The position numbers and the translations under genes were made by a program. Below the pieces are notes generated by a model. It was not told the origin of the DNA. It saw nothing but the letters and a program-made list of their open reading frames with translations, and ran no database searches. A stretch of 27,049 bases of DNA. Source: a virus. The stretch lies in IMG/VR virus record IMGVR_UViG_3300025687_000263, positions 1 to 27,049 of that record; one strand, 5' to 3'. This document shows positions 1 to 23,329 of the stretch, piece after piece (position 1 is the stretch's first letter; each line of letters opens with the position of its first letter).

Positions 1-14
1 CACCGTTGTGTATT

Positions 15-28
15 TTGGCAAAAGCCAA
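15..28 (-). other. Hairpin between DGR template repeat and left edge
   Basis: TTGGC (15-19), AAAA loop, GCCAA (24-28). On the leftward strand it lies just downstream of the template repeat, where the RNA between TR and the reverse transcriptase gene would be. In studied DGRs structured spacer RNA after TR helps prime cDNA synthesis, so a role here is possible but is inference. No T-run follows on the leftward strand, so it does not look like a terminator. Confidence 0.35.
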
Positions 29-59
29 GGTGAGCCAGCCAGCCAGTGGTGTTGTGGCC

Positions 60-178
60 CTCTCACTGTCTCTGCGTGACCCGATGTTGTCGTTGAGATT
101 CAAAGGTGAATTATTCCAATTGACACTACGTGACCTGCATTTCGTGCCATTGTTCCAATTGCTGCCCACGATCCCGTG
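60..178 (-). repeat. DGR template repeat (TR)
   Basis: This 119-bp segment aligns without gaps to the 3' end of the receptor-binding gene (234-352). By my count there are 29 mismatches, and 25 are at positions where this copy has T on the + strand, that is A on the leftward strand. Read leftward in the frame of the target gene it contains about nine AAC/AAT codons, for example G-S-N-W-N-N-G-T-K-C and later V-N-W-N-N-S. Such codons become many different residues when adenines are randomised. It is not itself a plausible gene: in its own context the frame has no start. In DGRs the TR is transcribed, copied by an error-prone reverse transcriptase that misreads adenines, and the cDNA replaces VR. 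The order target-TR-(RT further left) matches the Bordetella phage BPP-1 arrangement. Confidence 0.93.
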
Positions 179-200
179 CTGTAACAACGGTACTGCCTCA

Positions 201-213
201 CCCTCCCAGAGGG
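201..213 (-). other. GC-rich hairpin between VR and TR
   Basis: CCCTC (201-205), CCA loop, GAGGG (209-213), about 20 bp past the 3' end of VR and 10 bp past the target stop codon on the leftward strand. In BPP-1-type DGRs a hairpin or cruciform just downstream of VR promotes target recognition, so this is a candidate for that element. On the + strand it is followed by ATTTTT, so it could instead be a weak rightward terminator. It does not have the leftward T-run expected of a late-operon terminator. Confidence 0.45.
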
Positions 214-223
214 ATTTTTAAAA

Positions 224-1396
224 TTAGTACAGACTCCCACTAACTCCGCGCGACCCGAAGGAGACGTTGAGAAACAAAGCTGACCTATCCCAATCGACAC
301 CACGCGACCCGCATTCCGCGCCACTGTACCAAGCGCCGCCCACCAACCCGCGATTTGGAACTGCGTAACCCTGACCTCTACCGATAGAATTAACTCCATC
401 GTATGTCGTTCCATCGGAGGCGGTGTCCTGAACTGCCCAACTACCTGCTGCTCCGTCAGATCCTGTCTCATTTGCCCATTGCCACAATGCGCCTGCACAG
501 TCTTCACACCCGACATTTGAGATCATTCTACGACTAGCTGTGTCACTATGACCCCCAGTCGTTCCAGGGTCTGCTGATCCGCTGATATTGGTTTCTTCAT
601 TACCGCCAATAGCTAGAGCCATAAACTCGGCTTGTGTGGGAAGTCTTTTGTCGATTTCCGCAAATCGCTCTACAAAATTATACCAGTGATAATCGGGGTT
701 GCTTGCTCCATCCACAATTGTCTGATTGTATTTCGATTCCAGCGTTGTCGTATTGCTGGCTAGATAAATATCCGCCCACAATTTATTGCCCACATAAACC
801 ATCCCCTCAGGACTGGAAGTTGGACGATGAGAGGCTTGTGTCCACACACTTCTGGGCAGAATATCCCCATCGAGATAGCCTGTTAGGGAGTGCCCACTAA
901 TGGTTCCAACATCAACACAAAGGCAGTGAAATCCGCCAATTTTACGAGAATTTGTGGCACTGGCTGTGACACCTCCAACGGTTCCATTAGGATAGGTAGA
1001 ATTTGAGCTTAAACAAAAATTTGGAGTGGTTCCCGAACTAGGTTCTACCGCATAAATATAGACATCCTCTCCATTGCGGCTTGATGGTGTTGCCTTTGAG
1101 ATTTCATTACTTGCCCAAGAGCCTGTTGTGTCTGCATCAAGTGTGGTTGCCGTAGAAAGCGTATAAACAGTGGCGTTGATTCGTAGTTGCATCGCTGGAA
1201 TATTGACTGTCCGCCTTTCTGACGCTGTAGCAGAGCCAGCATAAAATCCAGCACTGACATCATTGCCCCCTGTGATTTGCTGCTCGGCTAAATACCAGTT
1301 AGGGATTGGGATGGTTTGTACCGAACCTCCAAAACTGATAAGGCCACTGGACTCCGTAGCCAGGGTCACACTGTTTAGTTGTATCTCGCCTGCCAT
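224..1396 (-). CDS. DGR-diversified receptor-binding tail protein, C-type lectin fold
   Basis: A 390-residue protein whose start abuts the stop of the preceding tail-fibre gene (TAA-ATG). The N-terminal half is Ser/Thr/Gly-rich and fibre-like. From about residue 170 it looks like the formylglycine-generating-enzyme/C-type-lectin fold used by DGR target proteins such as BPP-1 Mtd: D-I-L-P-R-S-V-W, then R-L-P-T-Q-A-E-F, then C-E-D-C, then L-W-Q-W-A-N-E, then G-G-A-W-Y-S-G and a terminal F-G-S-R-G-V-S. The last ~40 residues are the variable repeat. By family knowledge it would sit at the tail tip and bind the host receptor, and retrohoming would change its binding surface and so host tropism. 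It is the last late gene visible and lies 46 bp from the template repeat. Confidence 0.9.
   Translation of the reverse strand: MAGEIQLNSVTLATESSGLISFGGSVQTIPIPNWYLAEQQITGGNDVSAGFYAGSATASERRTVNIPAMQLRINATVYTLSTATTLDADTTGSWASNEISKATPSSRNGEDVYIYAVEPSSGTTPNFCLSSNSTYPNGTVGGVTASATNSRKIGGFHCLCVDVGTISGHSLTGYLDGDILPRSVWTQASHRPTSSPEGMVYVGNKLWADIYLASNTTTLESKYNQTIVDGASNPDYHWYNFVERFAEIDKRLPTQAEFMALAIGGNEETNISGSADPGTTGGHSDTASRRMISNVGCEDCAGALWQWANETGSDGAAGSWAVQDTASDGTTYDGVNSIGRGQGYAVPNRGLVGGAWYSGAECGSRGVDWDRSALFLNVSFGSRGVSGSLY
234..352 (-). repeat. DGR variable repeat (VR) in the target gene
   Basis: This covers residues of about 349-388 of the receptor-binding protein, nearly the last 40 codons. It is the recipient partner of the template at 60-178, offset by exactly 174 bp. 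About 21 of the 40 aligned codons differ in meaning from the template, concentrated at template AAC/AAT codons (N to A, Y, S, D, D, R, F, S). Conserved framework residues include G-x-W, the C of the E-C-G stretch, V-x-W and G-S-R. Four mismatches (242, 280, 284, 344) are not at template adenines. Homology stops cleanly at 234 and becomes doubtful above 352. Confidence 0.93.
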
Positions 1397-3052
1397 TTAG
1401 TGTCTCACTGAAAGGGTTCCTGTTAAGTTCATTGTTCCGGTCAAATTGATAGGACCGTCTAGGATCACCATTTTGCCCTGAATCGTCAGAGTGCCACTGA
1501 ACGTGGTGTCTCCGATATACAGTCGGTTATTACCGGATGCTACGGTGATGCTGTCACTGATACTGTTTGCGTGTTCGATGTCTTGTAAGGCAGTATCTGC
1601 AGTGGCCCCTTGTGCTGCCGTAGCATAATCCGTTGCTGCTGTGGTTGCTGCAGTGCCAAGACCAAGATGAGTGCTCAAAGACGTTGCGTTGATCCCAAGA
1701 GCAATCGTGCCCGATGAAGTGACTGGCGAACCACTATCTACCTCGATCCCATCTGAGCCAGAAACTGCGACACTGGTGACGGTTCCAGAGCCTGAAATGG
1801 TTTGATATTCCAGCGCAGTTGCGCCCGCATTTACTGCCAGGACCTGGTTTGCAGTGCCGATTGCAGTCAACCCTGTTCCCCCATTTCCTATTCCGAGGGT
1901 TCCTGTTACTGCTGAACCGAGATCATTGATCTCTGCAGTTAGGTAACTTTGGAGGTCTGAGATCTGCGATTCGGTGATGGAGAGTGCTGCTTGATGTTGG
2001 GTGACTGATGATTGGGTGATGTTTGCGTCGGGTACGTTTGCCCAGGTCACTGCAGCACTAAGATCATTTACCTCTGCAGTCAGGTAAGACTGTAGATCAG
2101 CAATCTGGGACTCGGTAATCGACAACGTACTTTCTGCAATGTACTCAATGTCTGTTGCTGCAGAATTAACTGCAACCAGCTTAGATCCGTTTCCTGTCAG
2201 ACTGGGGAGGAGATTCGTTCTTGCAGCACTGGCAGTGGTTCCTCCGGTTCCTCCATTGGCAACAGGTAATGCCCCCGTGACATCTGTTCCGAGATTGACC
2301 TGGTTGATCGTCAGGACCTGGCCTGCGGAAAGTGTGATGTAGTCGTAGGAGGTCGAAGAAGAGATACTGAGGTCTGTACTGTTGTCTGTCCCACTGGGAT
2401 CTACACCCAAAGTCGTGCGAAGGGTTGCTCCACTTTCAAACTGGAACTCTCCTGCAGAGGAGTTGTAGACCAGCAGTGCATTGTCTGCGAGTCCTGCAGA
2501 GTTTACATCGGACAGGGTGACAACTGTTGAGCCTGGAAGATCTGCGTATTTCCATTCAGTATCTGCAGTGGAATATTGCAGGATCTGACCATTCGTTGGG
2601 GTGTCATCGTCATCAGTGACAAGAATTCTCCCAATCTGGGTCTGTAGTCCCGTGTCGAGTTTTGCGGTTGTGATTGAGCCATCTGCAATCGTCGCAGCAG
2701 TTGGGGTGCTTGGAGTCCAAGAGGAGCCGGACCAGACCAGTGCCTGGCCTGTGGTGGGTGCAGTCGTTGAGGTGTCTACATCACTGAGATCATCAATTGA
2801 ACTGGGGATCGAGACCGTGGCAGCAGCCCAACTCTCCCCGTTGAATCGGAGGAAATCATTTATTGCAGGTGTCGTGTTCAGAACATTGCCCAACCCCTCC
2901 AGATCCGGTGTCTGGATTGACACCGTAAGTGTCTGTAATTGTTGGTCTATTTCATCAAAATTTGAGTTGACATACGTTCCCCAGAGATCGACTGCCTGTC
3001 CGACCGTGGGTTTTTTTAGAGCAAAATTGGTGGTTGTGGTGAAGTCTGTCAT
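1397..3052 (-). CDS. Tail fibre protein with N-terminal P-x-V-G module and internal repeats
   Basis: 551 residues from the ATG at 3052, which overlaps the upstream stop as TAATG; an in-frame start at 3061 is less likely. The first 45 residues carry the module N-F-A-L-K-K-P-T-V-G then L-W-G-T-Y-V-N then F-D-E-I-D, seen in many phage fibre and structural proteins and in the two genes upstream. The rest is low in charge and rich in Ser/Thr/Gly/Ala with beta-fibre repeats. The motif S-I-T-E-S-Q-I-x-D-L-Q-S-Y-L-T-A-E occurs twice, and N-G-G-T-G stretches occur twice. No catalytic motif was seen. It lies directly before the DGR target gene, so it probably forms or connects to the fibre carrying the receptor-binding protein (inference). 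Confidence 0.8.
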   Translation of the reverse strand: MTDFTTTTNFALKKPTVGQAVDLWGTYVNSNFDEIDQQLQTLTVSIQTPDLEGLGNVLNTTPAINDFLRFNGESWAAATVSIPSSIDDLSDVDTSTTAPTTGQALVWSGSSWTPSTPTAATIADGSITTAKLDTGLQTQIGRILVTDDDDTPTNGQILQYSTADTEWKYADLPGSTVVTLSDVNSAGLADNALLVYNSSAGEFQFESGATLRTTLGVDPSGTDNSTDLSISSSTSYDYITLSAGQVLTINQVNLGTDVTGALPVANGGTGGTTASAARTNLLPSLTGNGSKLVAVNSAATDIEYIAESTLSITESQIADLQSYLTAEVNDLSAAVTWANVPDANITQSSVTQHQAALSITESQISDLQSYLTAEINDLGSAVTGTLGIGNGGTGLTAIGTANQVLAVNAGATALEYQTISGSGTVTSVAVSGSDGIEVDSGSPVTSSGTIALGINATSLSTHLGLGTAATTAATDYATAAQGATADTALQDIEHANSISDSITVASGNNRLYIGDTTFSGTLTIQGKMVILDGPINLTGTMNLTGTLSVRH

Positions 3053-4020
3053 TAGCTGCACCCTGAGAAGTCTACGTCATCAATCGTCTTCTTGACCTGA
3101 GTCGATACTGAACCCGTGGTGGTGGTTGATGTGATTTGCAGTAACGAGATCAAACCTTTGTAGTTCCCATTTCCATCATTATTAAATAAATCAGTCTTGT
3201 TATAAGGTTCTAACAATGCTGTTGGTCCTCCACTGGCAGGTTGTAACGATGCGGGAATGCTAAACGTGGCGACACCATCGATGTTTGTTCCTGATAGATA
3301 ATAACCAGGATCTAGTTGACTGGTGTCTGTCGATGAGTTAATCAGGCGGATCGTGTACGGTTCAGATCCCAAGATATCCCTGATTGTGTACCAAGTATTT
3401 GGATACTGAGAAAGTACGTTCCCACTGCCGTTGAGTCTTAAATCTATGCCAACGGTCCAAACCTGGGCTTTCGTCGTGATGTTTCGAGTCTGAACCGTTT
3501 GAGTCGTCGTCACCGTTTTGTACTCGCCAATCGTATCCAGAATTTTATTGGTTTCGCAGACTAAGGTGGTGCTGTCTGCAATCGTGATGGGTGCATCCAG
3601 ACCCACGATCCTGGCACTGAGGGAATCAAACCGAGTGTTGAGATAGGTGGCAAAACCGGAGTAGTCGAAATCGAGTACCTCTTGGGCAGTCGTGGGAGGG
3701 GAGAAACCTTCGGCCTGCAGTTCGGTGTTCAAGTAAGGCCAGGTCGAGACTGGGGTGGTTGCACCTGAATAGGGATCAGGCAGGAGGTCTGCGACTCCAA
3801 CGGGTATTCGGGAATTAATCGCATCAACCTGCGCGATGTTTCTATTCACCTGGGCCAGTGTGGAACTTGCCCCAACGCCTGCAGCGTTGATCTTGTCTGA
3901 AACTGTTTTGAGTTTTGTAGATAACGATTCGATAAACTGATTGATGATCGTCCCGTAAGTGGTCGAGTCGCTCCCAACCGTGGGAATGTCATAACTGTAG
4001 TTGGTTGAACTGCTTGGCAT
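3052..4020 (-). CDS. Virion-associated protein with the shared P-x-V-G N-terminal module
   Basis: 322 residues from the ATG at 4020 (TAATG overlap with the upstream gene). The N-terminus has N-Y-S-Y-D-I-P-T-V-G, then T-Y-G-T-I-I-N, the same layout as its two neighbours. A helical segment with V-x-x-x-I-x-x-A spacing follows, and the rest is mixed beta and loop with no recognised enzyme motif. Position among tail genes and the shared module suggest a fibre or tail-tip component. No specific family recognised. Confidence 0.65.
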   Translation of the reverse strand: MPSSSTNYSYDIPTVGSDSTTYGTIINQFIESLSTKLKTVSDKINAAGVGASSTLAQVNRNIAQVDAINSRIPVGVADLLPDPYSGATTPVSTWPYLNTELQAEGFSPPTTAQEVLDFDYSGFATYLNTRFDSLSARIVGLDAPITIADSTTLVCETNKILDTIGEYKTVTTTQTVQTRNITTKAQVWTVGIDLRLNGSGNVLSQYPNTWYTIRDILGSEPYTIRLINSSTDTSQLDPGYYLSGTNIDGVATFSIPASLQPASGGPTALLEPYNKTDLFNNDGNGNYKGLISLLQITSTTTTGSVSTQVKKTIDDVDFSGCS

Positions 4021-4478
4021 TACGATCCACTCCAAGCCGCAAGTGCCGCTTCGGCTGCAGTTCTTGCAGCTTGGGCATCACTCAAGGCTTCATCTGCTGT
4101 CTCTTGCAGGGTCTGCAGTTCTGCCGCAGAGGCCGCAAGTTGTGCTTCGGCACTGGCGAGATCTGTTTCCAACGTGTCCAGATCAGACAGTAGAGTCACC
4201 AGGGAAGCGTTGACCATCTTGGTTGCCACCGAGACTGCCGTGTTGCTGTTGGTCAGTGCCGTTGATGCGTTGCTGTCTGCCTGGTCGAGTTTGTAGGCAA
4301 GCGACGGGGTCACTGAATCAGAAACCTCTCCGAACACCGTATCCACTGCATAGACCTCATCTTCCAGATCCTGCAGAGCAGAGTTCAAAATCGAACCCCA
4401 GGAATTTCTGTCTTTGCCGACTTCTGGCAAGGTGATGCTGTAGTTGCTTGTCGTTGGAGGACTATCAGTTAGTGCCAT
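4020..4478 (-). CDS. Small tail protein: P-x-V-G module plus Ala-rich coiled coil
   Basis: 152 residues. The first 45 carry N-Y-S-I-T-L-P-E-V-G, S-W-G-S-I-L-N and then D-L-E-D-E-V-Y, the same module as the next two genes. Residues of about 70-148 are Ala/Leu/Glu/Asp-rich with heptad-like spacing (L-S-D-L-D-T-L-E-T-D-L, then A-A-E-L-Q-T-L-Q-E), predicting a trimeric coiled coil. It overlaps the upstream 60-residue gene by 14 nt and the next gene by TAATG. A module plus a coiled-coil stalk suggests a short fibre linker or chaperone-like fibre protein (inference). Confidence 0.65.
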   Translation of the reverse strand: MALTDSPPTTSNYSITLPEVGKDRNSWGSILNSALQDLEDEVYAVDTVFGEVSDSVTPSLAYKLDQADSNASTALTNSNTAVSVATKMVNASLVTLLSDLDTLETDLASAEAQLAASAAELQTLQETADEALSDAQAARTAAEAALAAWSGS

Positions 4479-22226: not shown

Positions 22227-22818
22227 CCGTTTCCTTTACTCGTAAATGTTCTAGTTTCCCAAAATAGTCTCCCAACATAGAGACTAAGCCATCAAAATCA
22301 TTTTCTAGCTTCTGAATTCTTGCTTCCAAGACCTCATAATCAAACCTTGTGTTCTTTTTTGATTCTATTGATTTTATATCTTTAAAACTTCTTTTTGGGA
22401 CATCAATCCTCAGATCAATTGAGGCAATCCTTATTAAACCTCGGTAAAAATATTGGTATTTAAAGATACAATCTAAGAAATCAAAATCTGGATTAGAGAA
22501 GTCTCTTCGAAATTCATCTACAAGGTTGTGTCTTATCAAAAATGCCAGGTATTGCTGTCTCGCCTTAAAAACACTTCTAAATTTGTTATAAGTTGAATAC
22601 ATCTCATCATAAGAGAGCTTTCTGAGCTCATCGAGGCCAACAACCTCCACCCCTTCCTCTCTCAGTTGAGGATGTACATCTTTCACCCACTCAATCCTCC
22701 AATCGTCTGGGTTAGGTTCAGCCTTCGGATCCCTCTCCTCTAAATTGGCTCTGTTCTGAGCCTGGGTTGGGTTTAATAACAGGACATTCTTTAATTCTTG
22801 GTGTGCGTGGTTGAGCAT
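22219..22818 (-). CDS. Hypothetical protein, helical
   Basis: 199 residues from the ATG at 22818 with AGAGGA immediately upstream; an in-frame start at 22899 would lengthen the overlap with the upstream gene. It is charged and helical: W-V-K-D-V-H-P-Q-L-R-E-E-G-V-E-V-V-G-L-D-E-L-R-K-L-S-Y-D-E, then aromatic-rich segments and a C-terminal coiled coil (E-A-R-I-Q-K-L-E-N-D-F). AT-richer than its neighbours, as is the upstream gene. No known family or catalytic motif recognised. Confidence 0.6.
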   Translation of the reverse strand: MLNHAHQELKNVLLLNPTQAQNRANLEERDPKAEPNPDDWRIEWVKDVHPQLREEGVEVVGLDELRKLSYDEMYSTYNKFRSVFKARQQYLAFLIRHNLVDEFRRDFSNPDFDFLDCIFKYQYFYRGLIRIASIDLRIDVPKRSFKDIKSIESKKNTRFDYEVLEARIQKLENDFDGLVSMLGDYFGKLEHLRVKETDE

Positions 22819-23329
22819 ATTTCCTCTGTGAAATGTCGCGTACCCATTGCTTTTGCTTTGCACTGGGAGCGTAAATAACTCCAGGGCTCCCCGAATCACC
22901 TAACCAGGGATCTAAAAATTTAGCTTTCATCCCATCTAGGAACTCTTTCTCCTTCTCAGTAATAAAATACTGGTCCGGAGATGCTAAAATTTCCTGGAGC
23001 AAAAGAACCCAAGACTTTGGCATAAAAGACTGCCGAGTCTTCTCGTAAGACACCTCTGCTTCAAGCCACAGAGGGATCTTTTGATTGCTATTTAAATCTT
23101 CAATAAATTTGGCGATCTCCTTCTCGTACCGGAACCACTCACGAGAGACGTTGAGATGTCCAAATCTACGGTGAAGGTACTTTTCCTCATCAAGACCTCC
23201 AAAAGCCTTTGCGATGATATAAATATCAGGCGCAGCCGTCTGAAGATTTGTTAAGCGCTTTTTAATCGGCCCATCGGTGTACCCAATCTTTACTTCCTTG
23301 CGACTGGGGCTGAATGCGAAATAAATCAT
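22718..23329 (-). CDS. GIY-YIG-like protein, MUG113/T5orf172 type
   Basis: 203 residues. The first 80 have I-Y-F-A-F-S-P...V-K-I-G-Y-T, R-L-T-N-L-Q-T-A-A-P, then E-K-Y-L-H-R-R-F and E-W-F-R-Y-E: the reduced GIY-YIG fold of the T5orf172/MUG113 family (K-I-G-x-T, R-x-x-x-L-Q, E-x-x-L-H-x-x-F). These may be nucleases or DNA-binding modules; the activity of this one is unknown. The C-terminal half is not recognised. The last ~100 nt overlap the next gene in another frame, and the AT-rich composition differs from the operon, which hints at later acquisition. Confidence 0.7.
   Translation of the reverse strand: MIYFAFSPSRKEVKIGYTDGPIKKRLTNLQTAAPDIYIIAKAFGGLDEEKYLHRRFGHLNVSREWFRYEKEIAKFIEDLNSNQKIPLWLEAEVSYEKTRQSFMPKSWVLLLQEILASPDQYFITEKEKEFLDGMKAKFLDPWLGDSGSPGVIYAPSAKQKQWVRDISQRKYAQPRTPRIKECPVIKPNPGSEQSQFRGEGSEG

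Follow-up and report, generated by a model that had tools for sequence, protein, structure and literature searches.

The window, an entire linear virus record of 27,049 bases, almost certainly carries the diversity-generating retroelement (DGR) of a temperate phage whose head and connector genes are SU10-like, an element that acts, as judged from its sequence, on an Mtd-type receptor-binding protein. The element is genuine and of a known kind, the Mtd-type phage DGR; its unusual features are secondary and reside in relatives rather than in the window. DGRs were first seen in Bordetella phage BPP-1, and the receptor-binding protein and tropism determinant of that phage, Mtd, is the classic DGR target. 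The following components are present:

224-1396, minus strand: target gene, 390 aa, Mtd homologue (tail-fibre tip or receptor-binding protein), assigned by Pfam, PDB, Foldseek and PHROGs
234-352, minus strand: variable repeat (VR), which makes up the final ~119 bases of that gene, with 29 mismatches to the template repeat, 25 of them at template A
234-257, minus strand: IMH-like 3' end of the VR, GC-rich, with VR/TR differences common to all relatives
201-213, minus strand: short inverted repeat CCCTC-TGG-GAGGG between VR and TR, a weak candidate for a target-recognition hairpin
60-178, minus strand: template repeat (TR), 45 bases beyond the target stop codon, adenine-rich, with AAC/AAT units
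1-59, minus strand: start of the leader (RNA spacer) from the TR to the reverse TRANSCRIPTASE (RT) gene, with 0/59 differences to the relatives L005 and L010

The repeat pair had been aligned by hand in a sequence-only reading, and recomputation of 60-178 against 234-352 at an offset of 174 gives the identical result, 29 mismatches in 119 positions without gaps; the match extends for 3 more bases on one side (57-59/231-233) and ends there. On the coding (minus) strand, 25 of the 29 mismatches have A in the template and, again as first counted, G, T or C in the gene (15 A>G, 8 A>T and 2 A>C), while the remaining four comprise two C>G, one T>G and one C>T. Adenine occupies 38 of the 119 template positions, and the hypergeometric probability of 25 or more of the 29 mismatches falling at A is 2.2e-12. 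The variable copy lies at the very end of its gene, since the gene carrying 234-352 stops at 224-226. All 14 distinct VRs carry the same changes at columns 105 (A>G) and 109 (A>T), and none has C at column 110, where the TR has C; these differences would fit an IMH in the VR and an IMH* in the TR, although the VR 3' end has no pure GC tract. The inverted repeat, composed of a 5-bp stem and a TGG loop and located 20 bases beyond the VR end, is weak (shuffle P ~0.06); it is kept in the close TR-bearing relatives examined and missing where TR and RT are missing.

The target gene product contains the Pfam domain mtd_2nd (E 1e-13, above cut-off), matches the sequences of BPP-1 Mtd structures over residues 146-387 (E ~1e-22) and belongs to phrog_11262, tail protein; its tblastn matches include BPP-1-group phages. 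The AlphaFold model (pLDDT 70, poor near residues 24-49 and 316-345) retrieves 1yu0-1yu4 in Foldseek with E-values of 1e-17 to 1e-18 over ~373 columns, and formylglycine-generating-enzyme-type folds rank after these Mtd structures. The initial label, a C-type-lectin-like receptor-binding gene, was right and is narrowed by Pfam, structure sequences and fold to an Mtd homologue. Translation of the window-type and BPP-1 templates in the target frame (GSNWNNGTKCRSRSVNWNNSPLNLNDNIGSRR and GGNWNNTSNSGSRAANWNNGPSNSNANIGARG) reveals a common N-codon pattern, NWNN...NWNN.P.N.N.NIG, placing the diversified residues in the BPP-1 register.

Comparison of 14 distinct VRs from close relatives shows that 334 of 532 template-A cells are changed (63%) versus 56 of 1134 other cells (5%), and that 30 of the 38 A columns are variable versus 24 of the 81 non-A columns (Fisher P = 5e-7). 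Rather than being spread evenly over all four bases, the pattern that the sequence-only reading had weighed against a DGR, changes in the relatives' VRs are concentrated at template adenines. L005 and L010 have 0 differences in the 400 bases upstream, in the TR and in the 1400 bases downstream, and their VRs differ at two positions, both TR adenines; L016 and L017 share an identical TR, with 12/12 VR differences at TR adenines. The wider family provides more than 35 further mtd-TR loci; in these the adenine-bearing copy is again the downstream one, and often 100% of the differences follow this rule. It is scarcely credible that the 3' end was simply duplicated or gene-converted, the two tandem copies then diverging with an adenine bias from codon-level selection. 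That origin would account for a direct repeat 174 bases apart, and template adenines do fall mostly on first and second codon positions (19/38 and 14/38), but 25 of 29 changes depart from one base in one direction. The relatives' pattern already contradicts it, with noncoding TR cores that are near-invariant (0-2 positions off the window's), coding copies that vary strongly, and an adjacent RT.

No reverse TRANSCRIPTASE gene was found across the 27,049-base record, because the record stops 59 bases beyond the template. An RT follows the template in 11 close relatives in IMG/VR (L003, L005, L007, L008, L010, L011, L012, L016, L017, L018 and L022), and an RT fragment does so in L039. The RT start codon lies ~103 bases past the TR in close relatives, including L005 and L010, whose TR (0/119 differences) and leader are identical to those of the window over 178 bases. 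Among solved structures, these RTs match BPP-1 bRT (PDB 8ub7) best, with an E-value of 1.5e-58, the next RT following at 1.5e-28; they also match phrog_1423 at 2.5e-110. They carry IGNYTSQ and RYVDD, which correspond to (I/V/L)GxxxSQ and YxDD, the hallmark motifs of DGR RTs (PMC3521204). The RT of the window phage most likely resides just past the contig end, with its coding start ~45 bases to the left of base 1. In the close clade, the RT continues in frame into X, a conserved protein of ~100 aa (L008:7447-8736 and the other RT loci of this clade), and we infer that the off-contig RT of the window phage has the same fused form. The initial DGR reading is thus borne out by adenine-directed differences, by an RT in relatives with the same template and by VR variation at template adenines.

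From established DGR biology, the RT would copy a transcript running through the TR and spacer, misincorporating opposite adenines. Retrohoming at the GC-rich 3' end of the VR would then put the cDNA in its place, so that progeny would bear fibre tips with differing binding surfaces. The phage may, as originally proposed, actively alter its host range, and the element may still be active today in the window's own population. In a global survey, 50-75% of DGRs showed evidence of recent activity (PMC8144416).

The presence of mtd is itself no proof of present activity, because four distinct near relatives (L004/L013, L006, L014/L015 and L019) have mtd with neither TR nor RT on their contigs. The TR-RT block is absent at L004:3744-4065, L006:3780-4098, L014, L015 and L019 and present at L008:7179-8736, always at one precise site between mtd and X. 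Where the block is missing, X begins ~15-18 bases after the mtd stop codon. The junction leader AAGGAAATATG is common to all four TR-RT-less relatives, and all fused loci share another leader; with only two uniform junction types, presence and absence resemble a pair of standing alleles rather than recent deletions. On a small tree of the mtd constant part, the two states are interspersed, and supported branches force at least three changes. L012 (with RT) and L014 (without) are identical over ~850 bases before the VR, have 16 differences in the VR and diverge by ~11% downstream, a pattern that, for metagenome contigs and a small tree, fits exchange by recombination.

Naturally broken elements also occur in the wider family. 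At L021:4986-5680 the TR is kept and the RT is internally deleted, leaving only residues ~217-331, and at L059:421-1083 the TR is kept and the RT is missing; inactivated RTs beside intact VR/TR pairs are also on record (PMC3521204). Together with the four near relatives devoid of both TR and RT, these cases are what could be cited for reading the window as a relic, in which TR and VR remain, the adjoining RT is deleted or broken and the VR is frozen. Such a state is very unlikely here: wherever a close relative retains the TR and its contig continues, the RT is unbroken, at 99% identity, and the 178 bases of TR and leader in the window are identical to those of L005 and L010.

The RT-X fusion is found in all close-clade RTs and in 0/68 other RTs of the scan; outside that scan, L050:2949-4589 joins RT, an ORF of the 95-aa type (ORF B) and X in one independent read-through frame. 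In other genomes X occurs as a gene of its own next to mtd, on either side of it and whether or not an RT is present, indicating that X belongs to mtd and not to the DGR. A novel C-terminal extension of the RT was considered and dropped, as RT-less relatives encode the same ~100 aa in an independent gene directly behind mtd. The simplest reading of the fusion is the loss of a stop codon with little effect. Inside the fused frame, a ribosome-binding-like AAGGAG lies 9 bases before the ATG of X, so X may also be made alone. X matched no Pfam or PHROGs family above cut-off and nothing among phage records. Its confident model (pLDDT 92), composed of helices, strands and helices, resembled no PDB or BFVD fold convincingly, which does not make the fold new. 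A search of a literature library for RTs fused to tail-fibre assembly proteins returned no report, which does not establish that none exists.

Avd is expected to be all-helical, and the X model is not. A bAvd profile (PF22296) had no match in the records, which are fragments, of the 11 relatives and the window, and matched the BPP-1 control (E 2e-37); a PF05635 search matched no record, controls included, and is hence uninformative. Avd is essential for BPP-1 retrohoming in a reconstituted system (PMC12875486). X is a possible replacement for Avd. In many related DGRs, the conserved ORF B (~95 aa, KRFSD...FTGS...PF..TI) lies between RT and X, with the following examples:

L025:8295-8588: ORF B
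L028:5077-5364: ORF B
L051:4700-4987: ORF B
L094:3391-3702: ORF B

ORF B has weak PHROGs matches only, to phrog_19665 (function unknown there), and is a possible accessory factor of Avd-less DGRs. A more ambitious joint proposal holds that RT-X acts as one polypeptide in which X is the accessory factor replacing Avd in this clade, and that the TR-RT block can be swapped in and out between mtd and X as an on/off allele, homologous recombination alternating diversifying and fixed receptor-binding proteins; we consider this combination improbable.

The window encodes SU10-type capsid, portal and adaptor proteins, an integrase and an S24 repressor, a gene content that identifies it as a temperate phage with SU10-like head, connector and structural genes. 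Its portal and terminase are nearest to those of uncultured spring phages and Sinorhizobium phage phiM5 (32-52%); no near-identical phage or plasmid record matched the window, and neither Rfam families nor tRNAs were found in it. Anaerovibrio lipolyticus, the sole bacterial genome match (45% identity), is too remote to be named as host. The early region includes a T5orf172/MUG113 (GIY-YIG-like) protein (22718-23329, minus strand).

The target gene is located behind tail-fibre-like genes. Three successive genes of this type (4020-4478, 3052-4035 and 1397-3061, minus strand) share a short motif at their start, T-NY/F-S...P-VG-D--WG--N, which also opens the gene upstream of mtd in L004 and may be a recurring docking motif. 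The gene directly upstream of mtd (1397-3061 in the window; L004, L006, L008 and L010) ranges from 122 to 658 aa and keeps a similar C-terminal end, HSNSISDS...G.NR.Y.G...F, despite these length differences, which suggests module exchange.

In this uncultivated temperate phage lineage, DGR diversification of a receptor-binding protein is confirmed by sequence, with natural variants showing its outputs. The relatives form a natural comparison: at a single site, closely related phages either have or lack the TR-RT block, the RT is joined to the gene neighbouring the target, and no Avd was found. Two questions thereby become testable, which factor takes the place of Avd where a DGR lacks it and how frequently phages lose or regain diversification.

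Among known systems, the Mtd-like proteins of Synechococcus phage S-CBS3 (mtd) and Anaerovibrio lipolyticus (mtd-like gene) reach only 28-45% identity. ANMV-1, considered here from its paper alone, has an Mtd/AdtA-type DGR of an archaeal virus (PMC4372165). The closest annotated record is Caudoviricetes vir525, an archaeal virus with an Mtd/AdtA-type DGR (target 49% and RT 47% identity); it has the same target-RT order, but its RT terminates normally ahead of separate small genes, and its host is archaeal. The BPP-1 DGR (mtd-avd-TR-brt) differs in having avd, whereas here the TR lies 45 bases after the stop codon with no avd between VR and TR, the close-clade RT is fused to a ~100-aa C-terminal protein, and the hairpin is weaker, with a TGG loop. 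Both systems share an Mtd-homologue target, a VR at the 3' end of the gene, a downstream TR, a DGR-type RT downstream (in the relatives) and hypervariable residues in one register.
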